Positions 41,526 through 56,631 of a stretch of DNA of 64,000 bases are shown here, in pieces (the first letter of the stretch is position 1; each line of letters starts with the position of its first letter). The notes beneath the pieces are model-generated. The model had not been told where the DNA came from and did no database searches. It was given only the letters and a program-made list of their open reading frames with translations. Location of the stretch: NCBI RefSeq assembly GCF_963682185.1, contig NZ_OY821667.1:4911501-4975500 (forward strand), given 5' to 3'. A program made the position numbers and the translations under genes. The DNA comes from an uncultured Cohaesibacter sp. (lineage in GTDB: Bacteria; Pseudomonadota; Alphaproteobacteria; Rhizobiales; Cohaesibacteraceae).

Positions 41526-43016
41526 ATGTATCACGTCAAGAATATCATCGGCGGGAAAAGTATATCCTCCACATCGGAGCGCCTGAGCGCCATCTATAAT
41601 CCTGCTACAGGGGAGCAGATCGGTTCTTTGGCGCTTTCATCCGATGAAGAGGTCAATCAAGCGGTTGCTGTCGCCAAAGCAGCTCTTCCCGGCTGGGCTG
41701 CAACGCCGCCAGCCAAGCGCGCGCGCGTTATGTTTGCCTATCAGGCTCTGGTTCGCGAACGGGCTGATGATATTGCACGAGAGATCAGCCGCGAACACGG
41801 CAAAACCCATGATGATGCTCTTGGTGAGGTAACGCGTGCTTTGGAAGTGATTGAATTTGCCTGCGGTGCTGCGCATCTGTTGAAAGGCGAATTCTCTCGC
41901 AATGTCGGCACTGGTGTCGATACCCAGTCCGAGCGTCAGCCGCTTGGCGTTGTGGCTGGTATTACGCCATTCAATTTCCCGGCCATGGTGCCCATGTGGA
42001 TGTTCCCGATGGCCATCGCTTGTGGCAACACCTTTGTTTTGAAACCATCCGAGCGCGATCCTTCGGCTGCCAACTTTGTTTGTGAATTGCTTATGGAAGC
42101 CGGTTTGCCCGAAGGGGTTATCAATGTGGTGCATGGCGACAAGAGCGCCGTGGATTGCCTGCTTGATCATCCAGATGTGAAGGCCGTCAGCTTTGTTGGG
42201 TCCACACCGATTGCCGAATATGTCTATAAACGGGGCACCGATAGCGCCAAGCGCGTGCAAGCGTTGGGTGGTGCCAAGAACCATATGATCATCATGCCGG
42301 ATGCGGATATGGATCAAGCCGCCGATGCCCTCATGGGCGCAGCCTTCGGTTCTGCCGGAGAGCGTTGCATGGCGGTATCCGTCGCTGTGCCGATTGGCGA
42401 AGAAACCGCCTCCCGTCTCGTTTCCAGTCTCAAGCCAAAGGTTGAGGCCTTAAAGATCGGTCCATCCAGCGATGAGGCTGCCGAAATGGGCCCCGTGATC
42501 ACGTCTGCAGCCAAGGAGCGCATCGTCGGCTTGATTGATAGCGGTGTAGAGCAGGGCGCAGATCTGGTTGTCGATGGCCGTGGCTTTGAGCTGCAAGGCT
42601 ATGAAAATGGCTATTTCGTTGGTGGTACCCTGTTTGACAAGGTGACACCGGAGATGGACATCTACAAGACCGAAATTTTTGGACCGGTGCTCTCTGTTTT
42701 AGAGCCGCAAAGCTTTGAGACTGCGGTCGATCTGATCAATATTCATGAATATGGCAACGGCACTGCGATCTTCACGCGCAATGGAGACGCTGCCCGCAAA
42801 TTCGCCAGCCAGATCGAAGTCGGCATGGTCGGGATCAACGTACCCATTCCGGTTCCGGTCGCCTTCCATTCCTTCGGCGGCTGGAAACGCTCAAGCTTTG
42901 GCTCCCATGGCATTTACGGGCCGGAAGCCATCCATTTCTATACCAAATTGAAGACCACCACGACGCGTTGGCCCGAGGGACTGACCGAGGGCGCTGTATT
43001 CACTTTCCCAAGCTAG
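41526..43016 (+). CDS. mmsA: CoA-acylating methylmalonate/malonate-semialdehyde dehydrogenase
   Basis: A 496-residue aldehyde dehydrogenase of the MmsA/IolA family, with GGAKNHMIIMPDAD and the catalytic Cys in GSAGERCMA. It turns malonate semialdehyde into acetyl-CoA or methylmalonate semialdehyde into propionyl-CoA, the last step of uracil and thymine breakdown after beta-alanine transamination. GAGGGGAG lies upstream of ATG 41526; GTG 41523 is adjacent. The beta-alanine aminotransferase is not in the window. Confidence 0.9.
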   Translation: MYHVKNIIGGKSISSTSERLSAIYNPATGEQIGSLALSSDEEVNQAVAVAKAALPGWAATPPAKRARVMFAYQALVRERADDIAREISREHGKTHDDALGEVTRALEVIEFACGAAHLLKGEFSRNVGTGVDTQSERQPLGVVAGITPFNFPAMVPMWMFPMAIACGNTFVLKPSERDPSAANFVCELLMEAGLPEGVINVVHGDKSAVDCLLDHPDVKAVSFVGSTPIAEYVYKRGTDSAKRVQALGGAKNHMIIMPDADMDQAADALMGAAFGSAGERCMAVSVAVPIGEETASRLVSSLKPKVEALKIGPSSDEAAEMGPVITSAAKERIVGLIDSGVEQGADLVVDGRGFELQGYENGYFVGGTLFDKVTPEMDIYKTEIFGPVLSVLEPQSFETAVDLINIHEYGNGTAIFTRNGDAARKFASQIEVGMVGINVPIPVPVAFHSFGGWKRSSFGSHGIYGPEAIHFYTKLKTTTTRWPEGLTEGAVFTFPS

Positions 43017-43149
43017 GGAGAGCGGCGGGGCCATATGCTCCTGGTGTAAAGAAAAGACTATAAGCGCCTGAAATATAACCGGATAACCGGAAAGGGCGCA
43101 CTTCCAGAATTGCCCGTTGGGCGCAGTGAATTGACAGGGGAACCAGATC

Positions 43150-44391
43150 ATGAAGAAGAATCTGCGAGTGGATGGAGACCGTCTTTGGCAGTCTCTGATG
43201 GATATGGCAAAAATCGGTCCTGGCGTTGCCGGTGGCAACAACCGCCAGACCCTGACTGATGAGGATGCCGAAGGACGCGCACTGTTCAAACAGTGGTGCG
43301 ATGATGCGGGCCTTACCATGGGCGTCGACAAGATGGGCTCCATGTTCATGACCCGTCCGGGCACCGATCCGGATGCCTTGCCGGTCTATGTCGGCTCCCA
43401 CCTTGATACCCAGCCGACGGGTGGCAAATATGATGGCGTTCTGGGTGTACTCTCCGCTCTGGAATTGGTGCGCATGCTTAATGACGCAGACATCAAGACC
43501 AAACACCCGATTTGTGTGGTCAACTGGGCCAACGAAGAGGGCGGGCGCTTCTCCCCGCCGATGTTGGCCTCTGGCGTTTTTGCTGGTGTTCATTCGCTGG
43601 ATTATGCCTATGGCCGCAAGGATCTGGAAGGCAAGACCTATGGCGAGGAATTGAAGCGCATCGATTGGGTCGGCGAAGAAGAAGTGGGCGCCCGCAAGAT
43701 GCATGCCTATTTCGAATATCACATCGAGCAGGGGCCGATCCTCGAAGCCGAGGAAAAGGAAATCGGCGTTGTGACCCATTGTCAGGGGCTGTGGTGGCTT
43801 GAATTCACCTTGACCGGCAAGGAAGCGCACACAGGGTCCACCCCGATGGCCATGCGCGTCAATGCGGGCCTTGCCATGGCACGCATCTTCGAGATGGTGC
43901 AAGAGGTGACCATGGCCGCTCAGCCGAACGCTGTAGGTGGCGTGGGGCAGGTGACCTTCTCGCCAAACTCGCGCAACGTGCTGCCGGGCACCGTTACCTT
44001 TACGGTCGATATTCGCACGGTTGATATCGAAAAGCTCAATGGCATGCGTGATGCCATCAAGGAGAAGGCCGCTGTTATCTGCGAAGAGCTGGGCGTTGGC
44101 TGCTCGGTGGAACAGGTTGGCCAGTTCGATCCGGTGACCTTTGATCCGACATTGGTGGATCGCGTACGCAACGCAGCCATCGATTTGGGCTATTCCCACA
44201 TGGATATCGTCTCTGGGGCCGGTCATGACGCATGCTGGGCTGCCAAGGTTGCGCCAGCTACCATGATCATGTGTCCTTGCGTTGATGGTCTTTCGCACAA
44301 CGAAGCCGAAGATATCTCCAAGGAATGGGCCACCGCCGGGGCCGATGTGCTTTTGCAGGCGGTTCTGGAAACAGCCGAGATCTCGGAATAG
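43150..44391 (+). CDS. pydC: N-carbamoyl-beta-alanine amidohydrolase (beta-ureidopropionase, M20 type)
   Basis: A 413-residue zinc amidohydrolase of the hydantoinase/carbamoylase family. Metal ligands are seen in GSHLDTQPTGGKYDG (His and Asp), NWANEEGGRF (Glu-Glu) and EYHIEQGPILE (His). It hydrolyses N-carbamoyl-beta-alanine to beta-alanine, CO2 and ammonia. Neighbours (dihydropyrimidinase and MmsA) support this over other carbamoylase substrates. Confidence 0.88.
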   Translation: MKKNLRVDGDRLWQSLMDMAKIGPGVAGGNNRQTLTDEDAEGRALFKQWCDDAGLTMGVDKMGSMFMTRPGTDPDALPVYVGSHLDTQPTGGKYDGVLGVLSALELVRMLNDADIKTKHPICVVNWANEEGGRFSPPMLASGVFAGVHSLDYAYGRKDLEGKTYGEELKRIDWVGEEEVGARKMHAYFEYHIEQGPILEAEEKEIGVVTHCQGLWWLEFTLTGKEAHTGSTPMAMRVNAGLAMARIFEMVQEVTMAAQPNAVGGVGQVTFSPNSRNVLPGTVTFTVDIRTVDIEKLNGMRDAIKEKAAVICEELGVGCSVEQVGQFDPVTFDPTLVDRVRNAAIDLGYSHMDIVSGAGHDACWAAKVAPATMIMCPCVDGLSHNEAEDISKEWATAGADVLLQAVLETAEISE

Positions 44392-55563: not shown

Positions 55564-55626
55564 TAAACAGAACAATCACCAAACCGACTTTTGAAAAGAC
55601 TTGAAGAACAAGGACAGGAGAGAGAG

Positions 55627-56631
55627 ATGGAATTCGGTATTTGCTTTAAAGGCTTCGTCGAGCCCAAGCGTGCCCGCGCCCTTGTGCGACAGGCCGAGAA
55701 CGCCGGCTTTACCTATTGCTGGTTTTACGATAGCCACATCCTTTGGCGCGAAAGCTACATGGCGATGGCCATGTGCATGGAGCACACGACTAAAATGCGC
55801 TTCGGTCCATGCGTGACCAACCCGAACACCCGTGACTGGTCGCTGGCAGCATCGATGTTTGGTTCTCTTGCCAAGCAGTCCGAAGGCCGGTTCGACATTG
55901 GCCTTGGCCGAGGCGATAGCGCAGTGCGTGTCATGGGGCTCAAGCCCGCACCGCTGAAGCGTCTGGAAGAATTCACTCATGTGGTCAAGGCCTTGGTGCG
56001 CGGTGACGAAGCGCAATATGGCGAATGCCCCGAGCCGGTCAAATTTCCTTGGGCTGAGGGTTATGAGTTGCCTATCTGGGTGGCTGCCTATGGTCCAAAG
56101 GCGTTAAGCTCCGCCGGACGGGTTGGTGATGGTCTCATCCTGCAGATCGCCGAGCCAAGCATTGTCAAATGGCTGGCAAGCACGGCCATCGCAGAGGGCA
56201 AAAAAGCTGGCCGCGACATGTCAAACTTCAAGGTCATGTCCGCCGCGCCAGCCTATTTCGGCACGAAGGAAGAATGCATCGCCGCAACCCGCTGGTTCCC
56301 TGCCATGGTGGGCAACCATGTGGCTGACATCGTTGAGAAATACGGCACCGAGCGGGACGATATCCCCGAAGCGCTCACTGCCTATATCAAGGATCGCAAG
56401 GGCTATGACTATTCCAAGCATGGCCAGAGCGACAATCCGTATCTTGATTTCATTACCGATGAAATTATTGAGGGCTTCAGCGTTCTGGGCGCTGCCGATC
56501 AACATATCGCCAAGCTTGGCGTGCTGAAGGACGCGGGCGTCACCCAGTTCAATATCTATCTGGACAATGGCAAGGAAGAACAGATCATCGCTGAATATGG
56601 CGAGAAGATCATCCCAGCTTTTGATGCCTGA
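55627..56631 (+). CDS. LLM-class F420-dependent oxidoreductase
   Basis: A 334-residue luciferase-like TIM-barrel protein beginning MEFGICFKGF, with GRFDIGLGRGDSAVR and PIWVAAYGPKALSSAGRVGDG. From memory it belongs to the LLM subfamily labelled CPS_4043, often seen with dihydropyrimidinase genes. It is the only obvious F420 user in the window. GGACAGGAGAGAG precedes ATG 55627; the frame open to 55591 is not used. A reductase role in pyrimidine breakdown is proposed (inference); a RutA-like ring-opening oxygenase is the alternative. Confidence 0.82.
   Translation: MEFGICFKGFVEPKRARALVRQAENAGFTYCWFYDSHILWRESYMAMAMCMEHTTKMRFGPCVTNPNTRDWSLAASMFGSLAKQSEGRFDIGLGRGDSAVRVMGLKPAPLKRLEEFTHVVKALVRGDEAQYGECPEPVKFPWAEGYELPIWVAAYGPKALSSAGRVGDGLILQIAEPSIVKWLASTAIAEGKKAGRDMSNFKVMSAAPAYFGTKEECIAATRWFPAMVGNHVADIVEKYGTERDDIPEALTAYIKDRKGYDYSKHGQSDNPYLDFITDEIIEGFSVLGAADQHIAKLGVLKDAGVTQFNIYLDNGKEEQIIAEYGEKIIPAFDA

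Follow-up and report, generated by a model that had tools for sequence, protein, structure and literature searches.

How does a bacterium that carries the later genes of reductive pyrimidine breakdown reduce the pyrimidine ring when the usual first enzyme, dihydropyrimidine dehydrogenase (PreTA or PydA), is not found in its genome? The question is raised by a locus in a 64,000-nucleotide window (positions 4911501-4975500) of the complete, single-contig 5.39-Mb genome (99.8% complete) of an uncultured Cohaesibacter sp. A divergent regulator gene, genes of the pyrimidine-catabolic type and an importer are followed there by the genes for coenzyme F420 synthesis and by a gene for a member of the luciferase-like monooxygenase (LLM) superfamily, family TIGR03842. 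The answer proposed here is that the locus serves reductive pyrimidine degradation and that its first enzyme is very probably the LLM protein, a predicted F420H2-dependent hydride transferase that replaces PreTA/PydA. Genes were called from profile scores against the curated NCBIfam cut-offs, from Pfam domains and from the nearest solved structures; those between the regulator and the end of the locus are the following.

41463-43016, + strand: MmsA, CoA-acylating (methyl)malonate-semialdehyde dehydrogenase (TIGR01722, 702.9 bits, cut-off 448.5)
43150-44391, + strand: M20 N-carbamoyl amidohydrolase, probable beta-ureidopropionase (NF006769, 679.6 bits, cut-off 452)
44633-46087, + strand: dihydropyrimidinase (TIGR02033, 595.4 bits, cut-off 393.25; full-length match to dihydropyrimidinase 3dc8, 945 bits)
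46200-47000, + strand: ATPase of an ATP-binding cassette (ABC) importer (PF00005)
46975-47856, + strand: ABC importer permease 1 (PF00528)
47853-48698, + strand: ABC importer permease 2 (PF00528)
48774-49775, + strand: NMT1/THI5-type substrate-binding protein of the importer (PF09084, 132 bits; 3ix1, E 4.7e-20)
50002-51213, + strand: CofG (TIGR03550, 466.7 bits, cut-off 213.35)
51218-52495, + strand: CofH (TIGR03551, 487.4 bits, cut-off 374.1)
52492-53460, + strand: CofD (TIGR01819, 278.5 bits, cut-off 257.45)
53457-54116, + strand: CofC (TIGR03552, 131.9 bits, cut-off 105)
54113-54898, + strand: CofE (TIGR01916, 222.6 bits, cut-off 180.65)
54895-55563, + strand: NpdG/Fno, NADPH:F420 reductase (TIGR01915, 182 bits, cut-off 149.8)
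55627-56631, + strand: LLM enzyme, proposed F420H2-dependent uracil/thymine reductase (TIGR03842, 500.4 bits, cut-off 295.45)

An earlier note on this DNA, made from the letters alone, had listed MmsA, a beta-ureidopropionase-type gene, dihydropyrimidinase, an importer, cofG-H-D-C-E, NADPH:F420 reductase and the LLM gene in one direction, and all of them are there, on the + strand from MmsA to the LLM gene. From cofG onwards the genes overlap or nearly abut, the ATG start of the LLM gene following GGAGAGAGAG; a 226-bp gap separates the importer from cofG. The arrangement is not a matter of chance, because 12 of the 13 loci of the genus compared for gene order (20 kb each) keep it, five of these with an additional aminotransferase gene between the regulator and MmsA. 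The thirteenth (L156, genome G010) has an order like that described below for Leisingera (NCS1 symporter, dihydropyrimidinase, M20 enzyme, aminotransferase, transhydrogenase, cof genes, LLM), possibly through replacement of the genus version by transfer. An aminotransferase gene is present in 6 of the 13 genus loci; profile scans found none in the locus studied here (40562-56631), and a class-III aminotransferase is encoded elsewhere in the same genome (L009:17510-18904; NF005682, 792 bits, cut-off 510). Cohaesibacter marisflavi has a near-identical locus (L046), with an LLM enzyme that is 99% identical. The family model of the M20 enzyme carries the name allantoate amidohydrolase, and the ureidopropionase role is putative; the nearest solved structures are N-carbamoyl-L-amino-acid hydrolase (8apz/8aq0) and N-carbamoyl-beta-alanine amidohydrolase (8c46). 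The closest solved relative of the importer's substrate-binding protein (3ix1) binds formyl-aminopyrimidine.

The absence of dihydropyrimidine dehydrogenase from the window, also claimed by the earlier note, holds: two matches to the PreA profile (around 31129-31419 and 9726-9929) cover only the C-terminal end of that profile (positions 335-410). A preTA elsewhere in the genome would have counted against the note, and in the 5.39-Mb genome none was found over the cut-off. The strongest PreA match reaches 138.5 bits (cut-off 335) and comes from a class-1B dihydroorotate dehydrogenase, which scores 352 bits with its own model (cut-off 269). A hidden PreA was therefore rejected. RutA gave 0 matches at E 0.001 in this genome, and no second protein with the LLM domain PF00296 was found there; the F420 pathway has one visible client of the LLM type, FDOR-type F420 enzymes lying outside the search.

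The relation between the LLM enzyme and PreA was followed in 297 genomes of the order, each scored for the LLM enzyme (TIGR03842; present in 24), PreA (107), dihydropyrimidinase (192) and CofG (30). Dihydropyrimidinase is present in all 24 LLM genomes, PreA in one of them (G319). The 192 dihydropyrimidinase genomes comprise 23 with the LLM enzyme alone, 103 with PreA alone, one with both and 65 with neither; that is, PreA occurs in 1/24 of those with the LLM enzyme versus 103/168 of those without it (Fisher p 4e-8, uncorrected for kinship). The 65 suggest either that TIGR02033 picks up further hydantoinases as well or that there are reductases of other kinds. CofG is tied to the LLM enzyme (15/24 genomes with it versus 15/273 without) and shows no association with dihydropyrimidinase (23/30 versus 169/267, p 0.16); the link therefore runs through the LLM enzyme. 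Within two genera the reductases are swapped: in g53 the LLM enzyme occurs in G155 and PreA in G119, G188, G216 and G240, and in g87 the LLM enzyme occurs in G303 and PreA in G193 and G335, as expected if the one had replaced the other. In the genus of the window the LLM enzyme was found in 15 of the 18 genomes compared for presence; of the three that lack it, the two included among the 297 genomes of the order (G013 and G017) also have neither dihydropyrimidinase nor PreA over the thresholds used.

More widely, 83 loci were compared, namely the best 80 of 587 relatives, so that counts favour close relatives, and 3 plasmid loci; some sit on short contigs, and neighbourhood was judged within the stretch at hand. 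A dihydropyrimidinase, a carbon-nitrogen hydrolase or an M20 enzyme lies near the LLM gene in 47/83, M20 neighbours being scored only if at least 40% identical (matches at about 31%, in L046, L047 and L049, were left out). One of these, or an NCS1 symporter, MmsA, an aminotransferase or a RutR-like gene, does so in 57/83, and at least two cof genes in 46/83. No member of the dihydroorotate dehydrogenase family (at least 100 bits) and no PyrK (80 bits) was found near the LLM gene in any of the 83. PreA and CofG were also checked in 50 of the 80 genomes, hand-picked for spread, and PreA is absent, at its cut-off, from 44 of these.

The gene arrangement around the LLM gene varies widely between taxa. 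Cof genes accompany it in Marinomonas, Halomonas, Marinobacter, Vibrio, Leisingera, Paracoccus denitrificans, Pseudovibrio and marine single-cell genomes. In Leisingera an NCS1 symporter, dihydropyrimidinase, an M20 enzyme, an aminotransferase (AptA model, 742 bits, cut-off 500), both transhydrogenase subunits, cofGHDCE, npdG, the LLM gene and a TetR gene lie side by side; transhydrogenase subunits also occur in several gammaproteobacterial loci, and in both cases they could supply NADPH for F420 reduction. Chloroflexota loci L105-L118, except L106 and L110, contain all or part of a set made of MmsA, a carbon-nitrogen hydrolase, the LLM gene and dihydropyrimidinase (in L116, MmsA scores 544 bits, cut-off 449, and dihydropyrimidinase 566, cut-off 393). 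On a Streptomyces plasmid (L044), the only actinobacterial locus examined, a carbon-nitrogen hydrolase is present and dihydropyrimidinase (554 bits, cut-off 393) directly precedes an LLM gene whose product is 45% identical. The carbon-nitrogen hydrolases of Chloroflexota and Streptomyces may be ureidopropionases. Cytosine deaminase is found in LLM loci L070, L083, L085 and L121, and nucleoside hydrolase in L097 and L121.

Some further loci are recorded here in their own right. On a Paracoccus alcaliphilus plasmid (L042:15001-19447) the cof-LLM operon is followed by another ABC importer and an adenosylcobinamide amidohydrolase, with no pyrimidine genes alongside. A Caballeronia plasmid (L045:12001-13696) holds a C-terminal LLM fragment (38% of the length, 69.5% identical), with genes for a Zn-dependent hydrolase and transhydrogenase beta close by, apparently the remains of such a locus; it was left out of the counts, as was a Rhodococcus plasmid match (30% identical). 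A contig labelled Nocardioides marinus (L052) bears an alphaproteobacterial, Leisingera-like cof-LLM locus, and that assembly is probably contaminated or mislabelled.

What, then, would the LLM enzyme use as hydride donor? It is a full member of TIGR03842 (500 bits against a cut-off of 295), which NCBIfam lists as a hypothetical equivalog (F420_CPS_4043), so that the model name carries no function. The nearest solved sequence is an F420-dependent Mer (8qq8, E 1.2e-27, about 27% identical). A structure model built from 56 rows (pLDDT 90, pTM 0.90) was compared with the PDB by Foldseek: ranks 1-27 are all F420-dependent proteins (Mer, secondary alcohol dehydrogenase and FGD types), with Mer 8qpm at the top (TM 0.81), and the first luciferase appears at rank 28. 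Linkage to cofGHDCE and npdG, together with a salvage cassette found in Devosia-type loci, points to F420 as the cofactor.

This cassette is the strongest independent hint that the LLM enzyme needs F420. All nine Devosia-type loci (L095-L097, L099, L101-L104 and L121) combine the LLM gene with CofE and a three-part putative F420-0 ABC importer, and eight of the nine also with FGD; a nucleoside hydrolase gene occurs in two of them and a cytosine deaminase gene in one. The families were scored by profile in L121 (cassette L121:4250-9925), and in the other loci by BLAST to L121. In L121, FGD scores 499.5 (cut-off 420), CofE 223.7 (180.65), the substrate-binding protein 428 (TIGR03868, 392.4), the permease 443.3 (TIGR03869, 437.35) and the ATPase 318.8, under its cut-off of 372.4 (TIGR03873); NCBIfam already names these importer models putative F420-0 transporter. 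CofG was not found in the six Devosia-type genomes tested (G076-G081), nor in eight LLM genomes of the order (seven from f6, one from f16). In a tree of the LLM enzymes (91 rows, nine near-duplicates and L001 having been removed beforehand; quick method without bootstrap), the Devosia-type enzymes fall within a 12-row group (SH-aLRT 99), the two other members of which carry cof genes. It appears that in the Devosia type F420 synthesis was lost, import gained and the client enzyme kept, an apparent case of F420 salvage. When the positions that are at least 95% conserved across the 39 rows of the main proteobacterial group are compared, the consensus of the 8 Devosia rows departs from them at 2, and therefore nothing suggests a changed cofactor there; the consensus of the 6 Chloroflexota rows departs at 19, and the identity of the cofactor in that phylum is more open.

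The earlier note had proposed that the LLM enzyme reduces uracil or thymine with F420H2. I reach the same reading, because the enzyme co-occurs with dihydropyrimidinase, replaces PreA within genera and recurs near pyrimidine genes in separate phyla. The scheme that I infer adds a cofactor, a substrate, a direction of reaction and a cargo for the importer to what was established at the sequence level, that is, gene identities, linkage, the lack of PreA and RutA and the replacement pattern. The importer would bring in a pyrimidine. CofG, CofH, CofD, CofC and CofE would build F420, which NpdG would reduce using NADPH. With F420H2 as donor, the LLM enzyme would then transfer a hydride to uracil or thymine and so form the 5,6-dihydropyrimidine. 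The ring would be opened by dihydropyrimidinase, and the M20 enzyme would yield beta-alanine or beta-aminoisobutyrate with CO2 and ammonia. An aminotransferase, which some sister species encode within the locus and this genome encodes elsewhere, would together with MmsA complete the route to acetyl- or propionyl-CoA.

The regulator gene and the sequence between it and MmsA bear on how these genes may be controlled.

40562-41188, - strand: RutR/PydR-type TetR regulator, transcribed divergently to the catabolic genes (TIGR03613, 193.4 bits, cut-off 368; NF011584, 167 bits, cut-off 230; PF08362 TetR_C_3, 164.8 bits)
41365-41380, + strand: operator-like repeat 1, CTGACCGATCGTGCAG (pattern search)
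41389-41404, + strand: operator-like repeat 2, TTGACCGATCGTGCAG, 24 bp from repeat 1 (pattern search)

The RutR-like regulator of the earlier note is real in kind; it lies just outside the stretch given there for the locus, and it scores under both RutR equivalog cut-offs (193/368 and 167/230), which makes it RutR/PydR-like and not RutR proper. A pair of TGACCGATCG repeats spaced by 23 or 24 bases lies between the regulator and the first catabolic gene in 12/12 RutR-first loci of the genus, the positions having been checked against protein alignments; L151 holds one further copy elsewhere. The repeats agree only in their outer half-sites with the RutR site consensus TTGACCANNTGGTCAA. Allowing up to 3 mismatches, TTGACCANNTGGTCAA has 6 matches in the window, none of them in the regulator-MmsA intergenic region.

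Several observations weigh against the assignment of the LLM enzyme to pyrimidine reduction. Nothing resembling the operator precedes cofG: within 260 bases downstream of the importer gene in 12 genus loci the best candidates have 5-7 mismatches of 16, as did 1,152 of 1,200 shuffles of these stretches. That one operator governs both the catabolic and the cof genes was rejected, the sites before cofG being at chance level. In the genus the repeat pair stands before the catabolic genes only, and pyrimidine control of the F420 genes is there no more than a possibility, although RutR-like genes adjoin the cof operon in other genera. PreA and the LLM enzyme occur together in 1/24 genomes of the order and 6/50 others, and in these seven genomes the LLM enzyme may have another role. 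No ring-opening or ureidopropionase-type gene appears in the stretch examined in 36/83 loci. For the carbon-nitrogen hydrolases found in Chloroflexota and Streptomyces, assignment goes no further than the superfamily: in the 3 loci where identity was checked no NCBIfam model exceeded its cut-off, the best being N-carbamoylputrescine amidase. CofG is missing from 9/24 LLM genomes of the order, the ninth of which (G200) is a 78% complete assembly, and from 13/50 others (37/50 have it). It was found in none of the 5 Chloroflexota genomes tested, with no F420-0 importer near the LLM gene in the stretch examined, and it was likewise not found, nor an importer visible near the LLM gene, in a metagenome-assembled genome labelled Pleurocapsa and in one small single-cell genome, where incompleteness may account for the lack. 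Finally, the enzymes that act after the first step would serve hydantoins too, and a class-1B dihydroorotate dehydrogenase cluster in this same genome could reduce a pyrimidine.

The last two points each support an alternative. One is that the LLM enzyme reduces another ring, such as hydantoin, orotate or a purine-derived uracil-like ring, the dihydropyrimidinase and M20 enzyme acting as hydantoinase and carbamoylase. TIGR02033 is indeed named D-hydantoinase, the M20 family includes hydantoin carbamoylases, and the accessible part of PMC12507026 proposes a putative F420-dependent LLM reductase for a purine-derived ring (yanthine) in Chloroflexota. This is nevertheless unlikely: MmsA, omega-aminotransferase, the RutR/PydR-like regulator, NCS1 nucleobase symporter, cytosine deaminase and nucleoside hydrolase of LLM loci suggest pyrimidines, the PreA reaction is suggested by the replacement of PreA, and pyrimidine enzymes are the closest solved relative of the dihydropyrimidinase and one of the closest of the M20 enzyme.

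The other alternative is that uracil is reduced by the class-1B dihydroorotate dehydrogenase with PyrK (L009:10052-11805, beside an M20 amidase), and that the F420 genes serve something else. In the cluster (L009:2742-11805, genome positions 3801742-3810805), the genes for PyrK, class-1B PyrD and the M20 amidase are transcribed divergently to those for an importer and a uridine-phosphorylase-like protein and to deoB. A class-2 PyrD encoded elsewhere in the genome (L010) makes the class-1B enzyme dispensable for synthesis, and a weak uridine phosphorylase relative (119 bits, cut-off 280) and phosphopentomutase are encoded in L009 as well. Yet by profile the enzyme is a dihydroorotate dehydrogenase (352 bits, cut-off 269) and not a PreA (139, cut-off 335), the cluster occurs in 6/18 genus genomes as against 15/18 for the LLM enzyme, and no dihydropyrimidinase was found among the 13 L009 genes scanned, L009 holding more open reading frames than these. 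I consider this explanation very improbable; the cluster is likelier to be an orotate route, and possibly a second route of pyrimidine reduction.

Still less probable is that the LLM enzyme is a RutA-like monooxygenase acting on uracil with flavin mononucleotide (FMN). RutA is an oxygen- and FMN-dependent enzyme of the same superfamily with a pyrimidine substrate, and a RutR-like regulator lies nearby. The earlier note's analogy with RutA is a loose one: RutA is absent, and the best structural matches are F420-dependent Mer proteins and not FMN monooxygenases. The F420 pathway lies directly upstream of the LLM gene, and the product of RutA is not a dihydropyrimidinase substrate. A RutA-like oxygenase was rejected on the first two grounds. 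That the F420 and pyrimidine operons are adjacent by chance or hitch-hiking, for which one might cite the 226-bp gap, the lack of an operator-like site before cofG and the Paracoccus alcaliphilus operon, is scarcely credible when several phyla show the pairing again, with other gene orders and strands, and when dihydropyrimidinase accompanies the LLM enzyme in 24/24 genomes, even unlinked.

Two neighbouring segments of the window remain to be mentioned. Genes at 57185-62138, downstream of the LLM gene, match models for the osmolyte N-acetylglutaminylglutamine (amidotransferase, synthetase, M42 peptidase) and look unrelated. On the - strand, 62148-63992 holds a formamidase-like gene together with a partial gene for a second M20 carbamoylase.

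Reduction of the pyrimidine by the LLM enzyme would make the locus a variant of the Pyd pathway (PydA/PreTA) whose first enzyme comes from another superfamily, a conclusion well supported by comparative genomics. The downstream enzymes are alike in the two (dihydropyrimidinase, ureidopropionase, here a putative one, aminotransferase, semialdehyde dehydrogenase), whereas the first enzyme of the Pyd pathway belongs to the FMN/Fe-S dihydroorotate dehydrogenase superfamily and takes NAD(P)H or ferredoxin as donor where F420H2 is predicted here. The accessible text of PMC7332683 describes a ferredoxin-dependent PydAc in Clostridium, and a title in its reference list names PydR, a RutR-like regulator of the Pyd pathway. 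For LLM-type hydride transfer from F420H2 onto an electron-poor ring, picrate reductase is a precedent, according to the portion available of PMC8498797. Mer resembles the enzyme most in sequence and fold and also transfers hydride with F420H2; it is about 27% identical and belongs to archaeal C1 metabolism. The closest parallel is the F420 yanthine reductase of reductive urate breakdown in Chloroflexota, an LLM protein (PF00296) proposed from gene neighbourhood, in the accessible part of PMC12507026, to replace a PydA/YgfK-type reductase on a uracil-like ring; pathway (SsnA, HyuA, YgeX) and substrate are different. A literature search outside which most subscription journals lay found no paper naming TIGR03842 or CPS_4043, none joining F420, dihydropyrimidinase and luciferase-like, and none stating this function; PMC8305020 and PMC13367373 proved to be on other matters.

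A broader proposal, which has about an even chance of being right, is that TIGR03842 is an F420H2-dependent dihydropyrimidine dehydrogenase across Proteobacteria, Chloroflexota and Actinobacteria and the main reason why many Proteobacteria make F420; the Devosia type would import F420-0 from other microbes for CofE to re-glutamylate, and F420 would be a shared vitamin for pyrimidine use. If the present assignment is true, a family without a function acquires one, the initial reduction in pyrimidine breakdown gains, with an enzyme from another superfamily, F420H2 as a further donor beside NAD(P)H and ferredoxin, and F420 salvage between microbes becomes testable. The question can be put to a tractable laboratory organism, because Paracoccus denitrificans DSM 413 has the cluster (L056; LLM 508 bits) and CofG, with no PreA over the cut-off (G067); in this bacterium F420 should matter for the use of uracil.

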